Virus record (IMG/VR): IMGVR_UViG_3300010400_000029 | Coordinates: 1 to 45,914 of that record | DNA: 45,914 bases | Reading direction: 5' to 3' (one strand) | DNA from: a virus | In this document: positions 23,097 through 34,927 of the stretch, piece by piece | Layout: each line of letters starts with the position of its first letter | How positions within the stretch are numbered: position 1 is the stretch's first letter | The notes under the pieces: model-generated | The model's database searches: none | Seen by the model: only the letters and a program-made list of their open reading frames with translations | Told to the model about the DNA's origin: nothing | Position numbers and translations under genes: made by a program

Positions 23097-24088
23097 TGGA
23101 CATCCAATCATTTCTTAGGTTAAAGAATTTATTTCCACAACCAATGGCTCAGCCAGGATTAGATACTTATTCTAATTCTGCTGATACAATGATGCCGCCA
23201 TTATCAGGATTAGATAATACTCCCGCGCCTGATACTAATAGTAACTTATTAGAAGCATTCCAGCCACGACATACCATTAGTGATCAATATACCTCTGCAT
23301 TAAGTAGTATGCCCCAACGTCCACAACCAGGGGCATTACGTAATGTAGCTGCAGCTATTGCTGGTATGGGTGCTGGTGCAAGTGCGCAAGGTATATCTGG
23401 TGGTCAACCTATTGGATTTAAATATGATCCAAGAATGGCTGATATTGCATCAGATAAGGTCAAATATGGTGATTATGATAATCAATTAGCTGATTGGCAA
23501 AATCAGGTTAAAGCATTAGGATTAGGTGCTAATGAAGAAGATAGAGCTAATTTAGGTGAGGCTAAGAGATTAGCCGGAAATGCTGATAGAGATATTAAAC
23601 AGCAAGGAATGGATATTAAACAGCAGGCTATTGATGTTGCTTGGCAGAAAGAAAATGATATTTTCGAAACCAAGAAACGTCAAGATTCCGATAAAGTTAA
23701 TCATTGGAATGCTCAAGAGAAGAATGCTGCTGATGCACTAAAATTAAAGCCAACTCCTGAAAATCAGCAAAAATTAGCTGAAGCTAGAATTAAGGCTCAA
23801 AATGCGCGAACTGAGGCACAAGCTACTATCGCTGAGCAGAAATTAGCCGAAGCTAAGATGCAACATGAAAAAGTAATGGCAGAACTTGAAATGCGCCGTC
23901 AAGCGATGTCAAAGCAAACTGATACCACAGTTAATTATGATGCTAATGGTAATATTGTTGGTAAGCGAATTACTTCACAGCCTATGGGTGGTCAGGTTAT
24001 AACTGATCCTGAAACTGGACATAGATACGATACTACCACATGGTCTGCTGCTGATATTGCTGCGGCTAAAGCAAAGGGTTGGAGATAA
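23096..24088 (+). CDS. Coiled-coil internal virion/ejection protein
   Basis: 330 residues. Pro/Ser/Asn-rich N-terminal 80 residues, a short hydrophobic Ala/Gly segment near 80-105, then a long coiled coil (about 150-270). The C-terminal segment is polar with an ADIAAAKAKGWR-type end seen in phage head-tail and internal proteins. Overlaps both neighbours by TAATG. Confidence 0.55.
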   Translation: MDIQSFLRLKNLFPQPMAQPGLDTYSNSADTMMPPLSGLDNTPAPDTNSNLLEAFQPRHTISDQYTSALSSMPQRPQPGALRNVAAAIAGMGAGASAQGISGGQPIGFKYDPRMADIASDKVKYGDYDNQLADWQNQVKALGLGANEEDRANLGEAKRLAGNADRDIKQQGMDIKQQAIDVAWQKENDIFETKKRQDSDKVNHWNAQEKNAADALKLKPTPENQQKLAEARIKAQNARTEAQATIAEQKLAEAKMQHEKVMAELEMRRQAMSKQTDTTVNYDANGNIVGKRITSQPMGGQVITDPETGHRYDTTTWSAADIAAAKAKGWR

Positions 24089-27000
24089 TGCCCGAATTAC
24101 AAAAGAAAAATAATCTTGTAATTTCTAATCAACCGTGGCAGCCTCCAACACAGCCATTAGATAATTGGACACCTCCAACTAATCCAATTCAAGGATCAGA
24201 ACAGCAAACTGGTGCTGAAGAAGATACAGGTCCATCAAAAGTTAGAGAATTATTTGATTGGGCTAATAAACCAATGCTGGATATTACCTCTCCAGCAATG
24301 CGAGAAATGACATCTAGATTAGGTGAACCGGGATTAAATGATTCAGTTTTAGGAGCACAATTAAAAGGTTTTACATCAGGTGGAATTCAGGGATTAGCTG
24401 ATTTTATTAGTTCCCAATCATCTCCATTAATGATGGGACTTGAGGCAACTGGTGCTGGTGCTGTAGGTGCAGCTGCTAACGAAGCTCCAGTATTATCTAG
24501 AGCATTACAATTACCTGGTCAATTAGCTACTGGAGGTATGGTAGCACATGGCGTAGGTAAAATGGCTACTGATCCTGATTGGATTGGTAAATTAGGTGGA
24601 TTATCTGAAGCTGCAATGGGTGGCGCGGGATTAGCCCATTTAATGAAAGGTAGACCTACTTTAAAACCAAGTGGTTCAATGGTACCACCTATTGAACCAA
24701 AACCAAATTTACCACCTGAATTTACTGCTGTTGGTGAAGAACCGGCTTATGAAGCGCCCAAATTTAAACCTACTGAAGAATTACGTTATGAAATTGCACG
24801 TCAAGCCCAGAAAATGGGACTTGATAAACCACTTAATATTACAACAGAAAAAAGTGAAGTTAAAAAGCCAATAATTAAGGATTATTGGATTACTAATAAA
24901 GAAGGTAAAAAAGTATTAAATCCGAAATATCAGAATTTCGGGAAAGAAGCTGCGACTTTTAGTGGTGGTACAAATGTGCCGGCTCCAGAGCCATATTTCA
25001 TCAAAAATGAACAAGGTAAATTAGTAGCTAATCCTAATCATCCAGCCTTAAAAACTGAGCAACCACAAGCTGCTAGAGTTCAGAAAAATAAAGGCGCATC
25101 TATTGGTCAAAATCTTGATCGGTCAATTGATGAATTAACTACTGGTTATTCTGCGCCTCTACATCAAATTATGATTCGTGAGGGTATGCAGAATGCTATT
25201 GATGCTGTTCGTTCTTTAGGTAAAGAAGGACGAATTGGTCTTAGTGTTGATATCAGAAAAGGTACAATTACCATTGGTGATAATGGTAAAGGTATGACTC
25301 GTCATGAATTACAGACAGTTTATACTAATTTACATGAATCTGGTAAAGTTAGTGAAACTGGTGCCACGGGTGGAAAAGGTATCGGTAAAGCTACTTATAT
25401 TTTAGGTGGGGAATATTTTAAAGTTGAAACTGTTAGAGAAATGCGTGGTCAAAAGGTTAAAATGACTATGGAAGGAACTCCTGTAGATATTAAAAAAGGA
25501 GTTCCAATTAATTATCAAGTGGTTCCACCTGATACTCAAACCGGAACTATTTTTACTACTAAATTAAAAAAGGATCAAAATGCTTATACCTCTTTAAATA
25601 TGGCAGATAAAATTATTAAAAGTAGTAGAAATATTGAAGCTACTGTTAGTTATGATCCTTTTGGTGCAGATAACAAACATCCAAAAGATTATCAATTTTT
25701 ATCACATAAAGATGATCAGATAATTGGATCTCGAAATATTCAAGGAAATGATGTTAAAGTATTAGTCCCTAAAGATAGAACTGAAAATCCAATTAAAGAT
25801 AGAAATAATATTGAAGTTTATTATCTTAATAATGGTATGTATCAATTTAAGGAGTATATGCATCTTGACAAAAATACTCCTCATATGCCGGACCATGTTT
25901 TAGTTGATATTCATCCATCTGCTGAAGAAGGATCACCTGAATACCCATTTCCAACTCAACGAGAAAGTATTAAAAAAGGATTAAAAGAACATATTGATGC
26001 AATGATTCATGAGAATTTAATTAATCCCCAAAAAGAAGAACGTAGAACTAAATTAAGAGAACTCTACGCGGCGATGACCCCAATTAGCGGAGATAAAAGT
26101 GTAGGTAGGGGTTATGCACGTCAATCAGTAATGTATGATCCTGGTGATAGATTAACACCAGCTGAAACTACAAAATTTCAGAAAAGTTATGCACTTCGAC
26201 GATTAAGTGAAGTTATTGATAATACAATTGCTGATATTATTAATGCTGCTGGTGAACAAAATTGGAGTGATAGATTAGAACGAACTGGATTTATTCTTCA
26301 TCCTGATGTTCATGGATATCATATTCCAAATCCTGATACAGGAAAATCAGCTATTCTTCAAAATCCATTTCCAAATATTGAAACACTTTCACCAAAATCT
26401 GCTGCAATTGAAGGTATTGTTACTTCAATGCATGAAGTTGCTCATATTGGACTTGAAAAAGGTGGTGAAAATCCAGTTGTCACATTATCTGATTTCAATA
26501 AAATGGAAGGATTTGGTCAATATCTTGATACTTATTTTAAAGAAGTAGCTGCTCATGGTAATATCAATCCTGGGCATGCTATTGAATTCATTACTAGATT
26601 AGGTGATATTTATGGAACCTTTGGACCCGAACGATTCAACAAAGCAGTCAACAAATACCACAGTGCCATTACAGACGCAAATGGAAACTACACTGCAGAA
26701 ATTCAGAACCTTTTATCAATCTATAAAGAATCAAGAGGGCGACAAGCAACTACAGAAGATTTTCTCAGCCGAACTGGAGAGCGCCAAGAGCCTCCCAGTG
26801 GAGGAAAGGGGAATATTCGAAGCAATGATAAATCAAATACAATCAGAGCTAATCGGGAACCAAAACCAGAAGTAATTGATAAATTATTATCAGCATTACG
26901 TGAAGCTGGACCGAAACGCGCCACACAAGAGGATTTATACTCAGTAGAACGTGCAAAAAGAATTCAGAATGCCCAAAAAGTCAATACTGGTGGTTTAACT

Positions 27001-28548
27001 GGGTTCTATAAGCAACTTCATGAATTAAAAGGGGAATTACCAAAAGTTGATTATGAGAGAACCAAACTTAGTACATCGGATGTTAATGATTTATTAAATG
27101 AAGTTGATAAATCAGGTGCATTACTTCCATATGAGAAAATTCGCGCTAAGATGGGCTTGCTTAAGATGCTCACAGCTAAGCGCGAAGAAGTACCACAATT
27201 CAGTGAATTAAAGTTACTTCGTCAAGTATTTGGAGCTAAATTTGACCAAGTAATTGAGATGCATGGTGGATTAGGTGTTAAGCCTAATATGCAAATTGTT
27301 AAGGATATTGCTAATATGCCTAAAGCTATTATGGCATCAATTGACATGTCTGCGCCCTTACGCCAGGGATTACCACTTATCCATAAAGCAGCATGGCGTG
27401 ATAATATCATTCCTATGATTAAGATGTTCAAATCACAGGATGTGTTTGATGCAACCATGCAATCAATTAAGGATAGACCTAATTATCTATTAGGCAAACA
27501 AGCAGGTCTAAAACTCACTGATATTGGTAATCAGCCTGAGATGCGCGAAGAAGCGTATGGTTCAAAATTTGCAGAGAAAATTCCTGGAATTAAGGCTAGT
27601 GAACGCGCATATGTCGGCTTCTTAAATAAACTACGTGCTGACACATTCGATTCATTAATTCAAGATGCGAAAGATGCCGGATTACATCCTAAAGATGTGA
27701 TGTTTGATATAGCTGATTTCGTTAATACAGCATCTGGGAGAGGTAAATTACCAGGTGGTGCGGACAGAATTGCGCATGAATTAAATACGATGTTTTTTAG
27801 TCCGCGTTTAATCGCATCGCGCGTCGCAATGATGAATCCGGCAACTTATGTCAACGCATCACCATTTGTTAGAAAAGAATTTCTTAAAGCAGCCTTAGCA
27901 ACAGCTAGTGCTGGATTAACTATGACTGGGTTAATGTCAGCATTGGGAGCGAAAACTTCAACAAGGCTATCAGATACTAAGGGAACGTCATTAGTTCCAA
28001 TTCCCGGTATGCATGGATTTCCGGATATGCCAATTAGTGCAGATTTCGGCAAATCTCGATTTGGTAATACGCGTATTGAAAACTATGGTGGATTCTTACC
28101 ATATGTTACCTATATGGGTAGAATGTTATCAGGTGAGCGCGAGAGTTCGACAACTGGTAAACAGTATATTCTTGGCAAAGGATTTGCAGTTCCAAATCGA
28201 TTACAGGTAACTGAAGATTTTATTGCGAATAAACTTAGTCCGGCAGCATCTTTAGTTTACAAAATTCTTAAACAAAAAGATCCTACCGGAAAAGAATATA
28301 GTTTTAGTCCAACTGTATTACAATCACTAAAGGATATTTCAAATGGTGATTTCACTAGTGCAATGAAAAATGCCAAAACTGGTGAAGTTGGTGATTTATT
28401 TGTACCGATGTTCATTGGTGATCTTATTTCAATCATGAAGGATGATCCTAAGCATCTTCCATTAGCTGCAGGTTCATTCTTTGGTATGGGAACCCAGACT
28501 TATGGAAAGAATCCTAAGAAATCTACGGAGTTGAGGATTCGTCCGTAA
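24088..28548 (+). CDS. Giant polyvalent-type ejected protein with GHKL ATPase and HExxH zincin motifs
   Basis: 1486 residues from ATG 24088 (TAATG overlap, GGAG ahead); the TTG at 24079 is rejected. Residues about 85-190 hold hydrophobic Gly/Ala segments typical of ejection proteins. A GHKL ATPase domain follows: N box R364-E365-...-N369, G1 box DNGKGM (398-403), G2 box GGKGIGK (428-434). HEVAH (782-786) is a zincin metal site. Residues about 1040-1486 match the style of large polyvalent-protein-associated domains (LPD38-like), with a membrane-like helix near 1268-1287 and an FFGMGTQTYG-type end. Such proteins enter the cell with phage DNA and act on host targets. Another frame is open inside it at 26612-26875. 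Confidence 0.75.
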   Translation: MPELQKKNNLVISNQPWQPPTQPLDNWTPPTNPIQGSEQQTGAEEDTGPSKVRELFDWANKPMLDITSPAMREMTSRLGEPGLNDSVLGAQLKGFTSGGIQGLADFISSQSSPLMMGLEATGAGAVGAAANEAPVLSRALQLPGQLATGGMVAHGVGKMATDPDWIGKLGGLSEAAMGGAGLAHLMKGRPTLKPSGSMVPPIEPKPNLPPEFTAVGEEPAYEAPKFKPTEELRYEIARQAQKMGLDKPLNITTEKSEVKKPIIKDYWITNKEGKKVLNPKYQNFGKEAATFSGGTNVPAPEPYFIKNEQGKLVANPNHPALKTEQPQAARVQKNKGASIGQNLDRSIDELTTGYSAPLHQIMIREGMQNAIDAVRSLGKEGRIGLSVDIRKGTITIGDNGKGMTRHELQTVYTNLHESGKVSETGATGGKGIGKATYILGGEYFKVETVREMRGQKVKMTMEGTPVDIKKGVPINYQVVPPDTQTGTIFTTKLKKDQNAYTSLNMADKIIKSSRNIEATVSYDPFGADNKHPKDYQFLSHKDDQIIGSRNIQGNDVKVLVPKDRTENPIKDRNNIEVYYLNNGMYQFKEYMHLDKNTPHMPDHVLVDIHPSAEEGSPEYPFPTQRESIKKGLKEHIDAMIHENLINPQKEERRTKLRELYAAMTPISGDKSVGRGYARQSVMYDPGDRLTPAETTKFQKSYALRRLSEVIDNTIADIINAAGEQNWSDRLERTGFILHPDVHGYHIPNPDTGKSAILQNPFPNIETLSPKSAAIEGIVTSMHEVAHIGLEKGGENPVVTLSDFNKMEGFGQYLDTYFKEVAAHGNINPGHAIEFITRLGDIYGTFGPERFNKAVNKYHSAITDANGNYTAEIQNLLSIYKESRGRQATTEDFLSRTGERQEPPSGGKGNIRSNDKSNTIRANREPKPEVIDKLLSALREAGPKRATQEDLYSVERAKRIQNAQKVNTGGLTGFYKQLHELKGELPKVDYERTKLSTSDVNDLLNEVDKSGALLPYEKIRAKMGLLKMLTAKREEVPQFSELKLLRQVFGAKFDQVIEMHGGLGVKPNMQIVKDIANMPKAIMASIDMSAPLRQGLPLIHKAAWRDNIIPMIKMFKSQDVFDATMQSIKDRPNYLLGKQAGLKLTDIGNQPEMREEAYGSKFAEKIPGIKASERAYVGFLNKLRADTFDSLIQDAKDAGLHPKDVMFDIADFVNTASGRGKLPGGADRIAHELNTMFFSPRLIASRVAMMNPATYVNASPFVRKEFLKAALATASAGLTMTGLMSALGAKTSTRLSDTKGTSLVPIPGMHGFPDMPISADFGKSRFGNTRIENYGGFLPYVTYMGRMLSGERESSTTGKQYILGKGFAVPNRLQVTEDFIANKLSPAASLVYKILKQKDPTGKEYSFSPTVLQSLKDISNGDFTSAMKNAKTGEVGDLFVPMFIGDLISIMKDDPKHLPLAAGSFFGMGTQTYGKNPKKSTELRIRP
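26612..26875 (+). CDS. Probable overprinted gene nested in the polyvalent protein gene
   Basis: 87 codons in a different frame, ATG at 26612 with AGGTGA five bases ahead, TAA at 26873-26875. The product is polar and helical (for example IFSAELESAKSLPVEERGIF) and has normal protein composition. The host frame changes codon use exactly over this stretch, from AAT/GAT/GGT to AAC, GAC, TAC, CAC, GTC and CCC, and returns to normal after the stop. That is what dual coding would force. A recombined patch is the alternative. Function unknown. Confidence 0.5.
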   Translation: MEPLDPNDSTKQSTNTTVPLQTQMETTLQKFRTFYQSIKNQEGDKQLQKIFSAELESAKSLPVEERGIFEAMINQIQSELIGNQNQK

Positions 28549-32431: not shown

Positions 32432-34927
32432 TTATGTTTCGAAAAGGCTTGGAGTAATAACTTTAGTGACTTCATTGAATTTAAACTTTGTGAATTTATA
32501 GAAATCGTAGCCTTCTTCAATATCACATGGTATAACTAAACTACCACGTTCCAACGAGCATTTAGAGAAATCTATTGGACGTTCAAACTCTGTTTTGATA
32601 ATAGCTGCCGCTTCGTGCCTACGAACAATAGGAACGCTAGTGAGTAAAGCATCATGCGATTCCGCCAATATTCTAATCCAAGGATGGGCTTTTCGTATCC
32701 TAAGAGCGGCTGCTTTAATATTTTCACTAACAGTGCGTTGAGGGATATAACTAAAAGCCTGTCGAAATAATTCATCACCCCACCTCTCAAAAAATGTGCG
32801 CGTCCCACCTTTAGGTGCGTCTATACCATAAGGAACTGGCGCAGTTAATTGTCTAGTTTTCTCTAATCGGCGAATCACATCACCCTGAAATATCTGCTTA
32901 ATCTTAGGTTGTTTCGCGTGAAATATCTTTAATGCTGTGTCGGCAGTTGATTCCGAAATCGATATGTCAATGTGATACTTCCTAGCCTGAGTATTGAGTT
33001 CTGTAGCGGCGCGTCCTTTTCCAGCTCCAAGATGTCCAGCGTGACGCAATGTTTTACCAGCAAACCGTATTGGATGTTCGTAACCCAACACTTTCTTGCT
33101 ATAATCAAATTCAGTACCACCGAAAAACCAAGAAGCAGTGAGAGCGTGATAATCATGTTTATCTATATCCTCTAATGCTTGATAATCTTCAGCTAATAAG
33201 AAAACTACTCTTGCTTCCGCCTGACTAGAATCAGCTTGTAGAAATATTTCACCTTCATCACAAACTAACATGGTCCGAATATCAGGACCAATATCACCAT
33301 GTTTAGTGATAGTCTGAAATGCCATTCCTAGAGATTTTTTCTTTTTCTTTCCTTCTTCTCTGATTTCAATTGTCGGTCTAATTGGTGCTTCTTGTTGTTG
33401 CGTGCTAGAACGTCCTGTATCAAGGCATATAAAGAATGAGGTGCGCATCCTCCCATCAAAATCGGTGGGCGAAAGTAGGTAACTTGATATGGTCTTTTTA
33501 ACACGTCTATCCTCTAATACTAATTCCATTCCACGACGATAATCTTGATTCTTAATAGTTTGTAAATTTAAGAGCGACGTGATAACTTCTTCACCGACAC
33601 CTTTACGCCTTGGGAGTTTCCAGTTATCGTAAAGTAAAGATGCGACTTGTTTTGGAGAGCTGGTGTTAATGTGGTCTCCCGCAAGATTGTACAATTCAAA
33701 CCGTATTTTTTCATCCCATTCGACATACTTTCGAATAAGTGATTCTCTAATTCCTTCATTCGTTTTAAGTCCTTCAGATTCGATATATGCATATAAATCG
33801 TGCAATGGCAATATAAAGTTCTCATAGAATGGTCTTAACCCCATCGAATCTATTTCAATATCTTGAGAGAGATCAACTTCTTTGGTACAGCAGGCATCAC
33901 GCGCGCACCCGATAAATAAATCCTCTACCGAACCTTCATACATACCTTCATTCTTATAGAATGGTTCCTCTGTATGAATTGAAGTTAAAAAAGCTAAATT
34001 CTTAGGTAACTCTGGATTCACTGTAAATGCCTTAAGCATAGTATCTGACTTAAGGAAATTAATAACGAATCCGAGTCGTTTTATCTTATCTCGGTCATAA
34101 CCGAAATTCTGTCCAACAATCCCATGTCTAGCAAGAAAATTAGCAAGAAGTATCCAAATAGCAGCAAGGTCACTATCTGGAATGTTACTAAGACCATCAT
34201 TATTCCATAGCGGAACTGTAATTCCTTCTTGAGGTGTGAATGCAATTCCGATGCAAATAGGAATACAGCTGCCGTCAGTAGCAGCCTCAATATCAATAGC
34301 AGGAAATGATAGGTGCTCATGTCTTTTAATAAAATCCGCTAATTCCGCTGAATTACGGCAAACGTGAAGATTACGATTAGGACGAACTATTTCACGAAAT
34401 TTAGATTGCTGAACTGCGCGCCGGAAATCGAATTTAACTATCTGCCGATTCCAATAACCATGAAATTCGGCACCCTTACCATAAGTTAATAAACCGCCTG
34501 GATGATATGTCGCAACTACTTTATGACCTTGACCTTGAAGAATTGAGCCTCTATAATCCTGAATTTCATTATGCCCAGTTAAAGCCCATAATGGAACTTT
34601 ACCGAGAGCGAGAATGACATTTGGTTTAATTGCTTGAAGTTCTTTTCTTAAGTCATTAAGTTGTTCATCTATATCTATTCCGGCATTCTTACCGCGTTGA
34701 TAGAATGACGTTTTCTCACCGAAAGGCGCGGGAGGAACCATGTATTTACTGACTGAAGTTAGCCAGCATTGTTCTGGTCTTATCCCACAATCTTTAGCCA
34801 AACGATCGAATTCTTTAGCCCAAGGACCAGTAAATTGCTTACCTGATTCATTTTCCTCATATTGAGGACAATCAGTTAATACAACTATTTTGGCACCTAA
34901 TGGGCCGTAGCCGGGGACGTATTTCAA
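32432..34927 (-). CDS. Uracil-DNA glycosylase-DNA polymerase I fusion
   Basis: 831 residues. Residues about 10-170 resemble family 4-type uracil-DNA glycosylases (GKQFTGPWAKEFDRL at 29-43, KPNVILALGK, then TYHPGG near 140). The 3'-5' exonuclease has Asp212/Glu214, Asp278 and Asp344. The family A polymerase has TGRSS (504-508), motif A DSSQAEAR (566-573), motif B K625...GAGKGR, and motif C HDA (758-760), where the usual Glu is Ala. The phage replicase probably removes or senses uracil ahead of synthesis. A four-base overlap joins it to the gene before. Confidence 0.88.
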   Translation of the reverse strand: MKYVPGYGPLGAKIVVLTDCPQYEENESGKQFTGPWAKEFDRLAKDCGIRPEQCWLTSVSKYMVPPAPFGEKTSFYQRGKNAGIDIDEQLNDLRKELQAIKPNVILALGKVPLWALTGHNEIQDYRGSILQGQGHKVVATYHPGGLLTYGKGAEFHGYWNRQIVKFDFRRAVQQSKFREIVRPNRNLHVCRNSAELADFIKRHEHLSFPAIDIEAATDGSCIPICIGIAFTPQEGITVPLWNNDGLSNIPDSDLAAIWILLANFLARHGIVGQNFGYDRDKIKRLGFVINFLKSDTMLKAFTVNPELPKNLAFLTSIHTEEPFYKNEGMYEGSVEDLFIGCARDACCTKEVDLSQDIEIDSMGLRPFYENFILPLHDLYAYIESEGLKTNEGIRESLIRKYVEWDEKIRFELYNLAGDHINTSSPKQVASLLYDNWKLPRRKGVGEEVITSLLNLQTIKNQDYRRGMELVLEDRRVKKTISSYLLSPTDFDGRMRTSFFICLDTGRSSTQQQEAPIRPTIEIREEGKKKKKSLGMAFQTITKHGDIGPDIRTMLVCDEGEIFLQADSSQAEARVVFLLAEDYQALEDIDKHDYHALTASWFFGGTEFDYSKKVLGYEHPIRFAGKTLRHAGHLGAGKGRAATELNTQARKYHIDISISESTADTALKIFHAKQPKIKQIFQGDVIRRLEKTRQLTAPVPYGIDAPKGGTRTFFERWGDELFRQAFSYIPQRTVSENIKAAALRIRKAHPWIRILAESHDALLTSVPIVRRHEAAAIIKTEFERPIDFSKCSLERGSLVIPCDIEEGYDFYKFTKFKFNEVTKVITPSLFET

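Follow-up and report, generated by a model that had tools for sequence, protein, structure and literature searches.

Genes that lie wholly inside another gene are a known kind of arrangement, since they occur in tailed phages such as lambda, where Rz1 is embedded in Rz (PMC6139136). Rz1 is a small +1 gene with its own start, it is missed by gene callers, and Rz1 and Rz are partners (PMC6139136). It encodes an outer-membrane lysis lipoprotein with a signal and a lipobox and is part of the lysis cassette. An internal +1 overlap is the commonest geometry for genes that arise de novo and is also found for gene E within gene D of phiX174 (PMC8227390). The second described system with which our locus has to be compared are the polyvalent proteins (Iyer et al. 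2017, PMC5512222), which are giant, multidomain, built from swappable modules and encoded last in the structural block. Their commonest domain is the zincin-like metallopeptidase with its HExxH motif, which was proposed to process such proteins before or after delivery; GHKL, Hsp90, gyrase and overlapping genes are unmentioned in that paper (PMC5512222).

Here, we describe a putative overprinted gene in a giant phage gene. The window, that is, the whole stretch of 45,914 nucleotides analysed, is the record of a 45.9 kb uncultured phage. The features that matter for the following are:

24079..28548, plus strand: gene of the giant protein, with 1,489 codons if counted from TTG 24079, last gene of the structural block
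25168..25449, plus strand: GHKL ATPase domain (HATPase_c_3 / HATPase_c; Pfam, E 2.9e-6)
26431..26445, plus strand: HExxH motif (HEVAH), from the alignment
26600..26602, plus strand: TAG stop of the nested frame, within the ribosome site and three codons before the start
26601..26606, plus strand: Shine-Dalgarno-like AGGTGA, in relatives mostly TAGGAGA
26612..26875, plus strand: putative overprinted gene, 87 aa, ATG at 26612, TAA ending at 26875, in the +1 frame of 24079-28548
26878..28548, plus strand: C-terminal domain, without Pfam match; common to related phages without the GHKL-HExxH module and without the nested gene

As with Rz1, a small +1 gene lies wholly inside a tailed-phage gene, and standard gene callers would miss it for this reason. 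Unlike Rz1, its product is predicted to be soluble, cysteine-free and helical, and the gene is situated not in a lysis cassette but in the gene of a giant late protein. The enclosing protein shares size, multidomain build, HExxH motif, swappable modules and gene position with the polyvalent proteins, but none of the Pfam polyvalent domains is matched by it. In contrast to overlaps of the phiX174 type, the phage has a 46 kb genome without obvious pressure on coding space, and the overlap is kept down to 27% identity of the nested proteins. As far as the sources show, three things are new: the nested family, the fact that it sits within a metallopeptidase module of virion type, and the strict linkage of the two.

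The likelier start of the giant gene is ATG 24088, which overlaps the stop of the upstream gene in a TGATG; in relatives, the gene has 1,089-2,381 codons. The structural model of the protein resembles chains of Hsp90, topoisomerase VI and GyrB (Z about 20, model residues 1-327), and the matches of the structure search mainly span residues 1-526. According to the model, the main module is a GHKL ATPase in an Hsp90/topoisomerase-like arrangement that is followed by the HExxH region. The GHKL domain matches PHROG 6203 and the RIIA-like PHROG 2979. The HExxH segment found no match in Pfam, even at E 10. The H, E and H of its motif are invariant in 18 of 18 lineages, within frames of such different length. 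Similarity of the C-terminal domain to the terminase-linked phages begins at residue 928, at about the end of the nested gene. The position of the gene at the end of the structural block suggests that the giant protein may be packaged and delivered into the host, an idea that draws on the literature on polyvalent proteins (PMC5512222).

The 87-codon second frame noticed in the preliminary description is present at 26612-26875, with the length and the +1 frame given there. Within the window, third positions of the main frame are C in 4% of the codons upstream, in 23% within 26617-26875 and in 10% downstream. The shift to C-ending codons that had been reported is thus real; the accompanying statement that codon use returns to normal at the nested stop is only roughly true, with third-position G+C remaining at 0.2-0.33 downstream of it. 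Scored by codon use, the main frame across the overlap ranks in the bottom 2% of coding windows in this phage, and no other +1 window scores as well as the nested frame. By itself, this evidence is only suggestive, because the genome contains other out-of-frame runs of similar length (94, 89, 89 and 88 codons, with several of 81-94) and the open length of the nested frame is not significant (P = 0.22 with shuffled codon order, 0.31-0.36 with synonymous resampling). The proof of the nested gene is comparative and does not come from the window. A second candidate for overprinting was seen on the minus strand at 33568-33834, a +1 run of 88 codons with a high codon score inside the gene 32432-34927, which also contains the lowest main-frame codon scores of the phage. 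Codon drift within giant phage genes can expose real genes.

Relatives were not found with single whole-protein queries, nor did searches of phage records and bacterial genomes retrieve any. With the large terminase as query, related phages were reached in which the similarity to the giant protein is confined to its C-terminal domain, and contigs carrying the same module were then recovered with short pieces of the ATPase and HExxH regions as queries. An alignment of four sequences then recovered 14 loci, some of them already known, and an alignment of nested proteins 16, including five new contigs. After removal of duplicates and near-duplicates, 18 lineages were left, the window and 17 further ones; all relatives are metagenomic phage contigs and none is cultured. 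Stops and nested identity were compared in 13 aligned genomes, the window and 12 relatives. The start sites in L056, L061, L079, L081 and L086 were assigned by us.

All 18 lineages have an open nested frame at the homologous position, and the nested proteins are 27-75% identical. In the module of about 600 codons, the overlap is the only stretch of 70 columns in which the +1 frame is free of stops in 13 of 13 genomes. Upstream of it, the +1 frame is stopped in 11-13 of the 13, the +2 frame across the overlap is stopped in every one, and a neighbouring chance ORF (26279-26548) contains stops in 12 of 12 relatives. Relatives that keep the main frame and break the nested one had been named in the preliminary description as the observation to look for; over the aligned core, where the main frame is kept, none was found. 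The suggested comparison of synonymous variation gave strong suppression exactly across the overlap: pairs of codons for the same amino acid are identical in 70.6% versus 39.0% expected from the codon use of each genome (ratio 1.81, n = 3011), with ratios of 1.18 upstream and, from few codon pairs, 0.94 directly after the nested stop. The mean pairwise identity of the nested proteins is 45.6%, versus 22.3 +/- 0.7% when the main frame is resampled synonymously (z about 32). Constraint from the main frame thus explains only part of the conservation of the nested protein by a wide margin, and the assumption that two frames are maintained at once is supported. Substitutions at the level of the nested protein are conservative. 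Conservation is weak in both frames along the N-terminal tail (nested residues 1-22) and pronounced in both in the regions of helices 1 and 2; in helix 3, the last third, nested identity exceeds that of the main protein (42% versus 28%) and 82% of same-amino-acid codons are identical. Taken together, these comparisons argue that 26612-26875 is very probably a real and translated protein-coding gene inside the giant phage gene. It is an unusually well-supported case of overprinting in a tailed phage, with a dual-frame constraint that can be measured.

The nested product has 72-111 amino acids across the lineages and is polar. It is predicted to be a small soluble protein of three helices (residues 20-42, 44-58 and 63-80; pLDDT about 84-87) behind a disordered N-terminal tail. 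Neither a signal nor a membrane span was detected, and none of the 18 nested proteins contains a cysteine; hence there is no lipobox, the N terminus is polar, and the reading as an embedded o-spanin of the Rz1 type was rejected. The search for stand-alone homologues that the preliminary description proposed gave no match, and no stand-alone copy turned up in any of the searches run. Pfam, PHROGs, NCBIfam and PADLOC have no convincing match to the family, since no library match recurred beyond a couple of members or came close to a curated cut-off, so that a protein family absent from these libraries is added. Fold searches with the model of the nested protein gave no significant match, which does not argue for a new fold. 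When solved structures were searched by profile, a single weak match appeared (E 0.054). A match to PHROG 6203, shown with E 0.041 by 1 of 13 members, was treated as chance. This weak match, together with that of the main frame, had suggested that the ancestral main frame might survive as the nested frame, with two compensating frameshifts; the idea was rejected because only 1 of 13 members matches PHROG 6203 and because relatives conserve both frames. Apparent homology to gp103 of Staphylococcus phage Machias, a P-loop-type protein, was also judged a chance match, and apparent homology to Sinorhizobium phage Phosso and Salicola phage SCTP-2 is weak. A match of the overlap to L040 falls in an unrelated upstream gene and is due to chance.

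In most lineages the start codon is at the same place, inside the main-frame motif RLGxxY. This is typically encoded as AGA-YTA-GGA-GAR-NNN-TAT-G, so that TAGGAGA serves as the ribosome site and TAT-G yields the ATG. The pattern is largely dictated by the amino acids of the main protein, and most individual genomes are not significant. The ribosome site of the window, described before as a good one, is average and no stronger than the amino acids of the main protein give by chance. Across the genomes, the mean Shine-Dalgarno energy is -6.0 kcal/mol versus -4.55 kcal/mol in the null, and 0 of 1000 resamplings were as strong, a result that kinship inflates. In 16 of 18 genomes, no more than four codons separate the start from a preceding stop of the nested frame. 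Of the exceptions to the common pattern, L056 starts with TTG behind a stronger ribosome site, L061 is without the usual start but has an ATG farther along that is preceded by a ribosome site of its own, and L079 has no clear ribosome site.

Three explanations without an independently started gene have to be weighed. The length of the frame, which is not significant, and the out-of-frame runs of 81-94 codons elsewhere in the genome would fit a chance open frame in a region of unusual composition, but conservation in 18 lineages at z about 32 to 35 refutes it, and the probability left to it is vanishingly small. Synonymous constraint could also stem from an RNA structure or a cis-regulatory element, and the RNA of the window indeed folds slightly better than shuffled sequences (z -1.9). 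The constraint, however, is frame-specific, with +1 open in all lineages and +2 stopped in 13 of 13 genomes, substitutions in the nested protein are conservative, there is no match in Rfam, and we regard such an element as extremely improbable. More serious, if still improbable, is a programmed +1 frameshift inside the overlap, which would cut the GHKL-HExxH protein short and provide it with the three helices as an alternative tail. The weak conservation of the first ~22 nested codons, as if the frame were entered later, and the average ribosome site of the window would agree with it. However, the nested-frame stop within four codons upstream of the start in most genomes makes entry from farther upstream impossible, the weakly conserved tail is still free of stops (the product of the per-genome probabilities is about 1e-9, an overstatement because the lineages share ancestry), start codon and ribosome site exceed what the main frame requires, and by eye no common slippery heptamer was seen in the loci read. 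Since start, ribosome site and upstream stop are mostly conserved, independent initiation is favoured over frameshifting: most likely, and with good support from the comparison, ribosomes bind the late mRNA at a separate site inside the giant gene and translate the nested gene from its own ATG.

What could the product do? As described before, the gene lies between the HExxH and the C-terminal domain, although the first half of it still coincides with the final helices of the HExxH domain. Nested helix 1 is opposite a confidently predicted main-frame helix, and helix 3 is opposite a part of the main protein that is predicted to be a disordered linker (model residues 579-606, pLDDT below 50). 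Among 34 searched records, the nested gene is present in 14 of 14 with the module and in 0 of 20 without. In L090 (2694-8348), the GHKL domain is not detectable and both HExxH and nested gene are kept; the association therefore follows the HExxH domain, and parts of the module are exchanged separately. Part of this link is inevitable, given that the nested gene runs over the end of the HExxH domain. Based on this association and on the proposed role of metallopeptidases in processing polyvalent proteins (PMC5512222), we propose as the most likely role that the nested product is made together with the enclosing GHKL-HExxH protein as its partner and would act on it as inhibitor or chaperone, a proposal to which we give a little less than an even chance. 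The product would bind the zincin-like HExxH region and keep the protease silent until the giant protein is packaged or, alternatively, chaperone the giant protein until then. The overlap would ensure that protease module and partner are always transferred together between phages. The fuller version is less likely than not; in it, the two frames of the same DNA would specify the last part of a virion metallopeptidase domain and, for this peptidase, a dedicated small inhibitor or maturation chaperone, an inseparable pair of enzyme and partner that spreads among phages as a single cassette. A real gene with a function unrelated to the enclosing protein, e.g. a virion-packaged or late host-directed effector placed in the linker, is a serious possibility, if short of an even chance. 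The disordered linker opposite helix 3 is a permissive place for it, and the sequence resembles no defence or effector family. Against it stand the strict co-occurrence with the HExxH module, the retention of the gene where the GHKL domain is gone and the lack, in our searches, of a stand-alone copy as expected of an independent effector. The reading as a co-made partner would make the product a concrete candidate partner for virion metallopeptidases. To our knowledge, their control before packaging is unexplained.

The collection also contains other architectures of the enclosing protein. In the related phages L031-L043, the product of the last structural gene resembles the giant protein at both ends and has an unrelated middle, which is consistent with modular exchange; the nested-gene profile found no match in those of these records that were searched. 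Among annotated phage records, the C-terminal domain was found only in L003 (MW202497, 3766-8514), whose protein of 1,582 aa has a different HExxH motif (HELGHH) and no match to the nested gene. In L055 (3561-6845, on a contig shared with L048), the giant gene ends 24 codons past the nested stop and is without the length of C-terminal domain seen in the other lineages examined. L081 and L086 have the HExxH variant HEFTH, a shortened loop and, where the GH motif usually has its H, an E, which suggests that the third zinc ligand may be variable.
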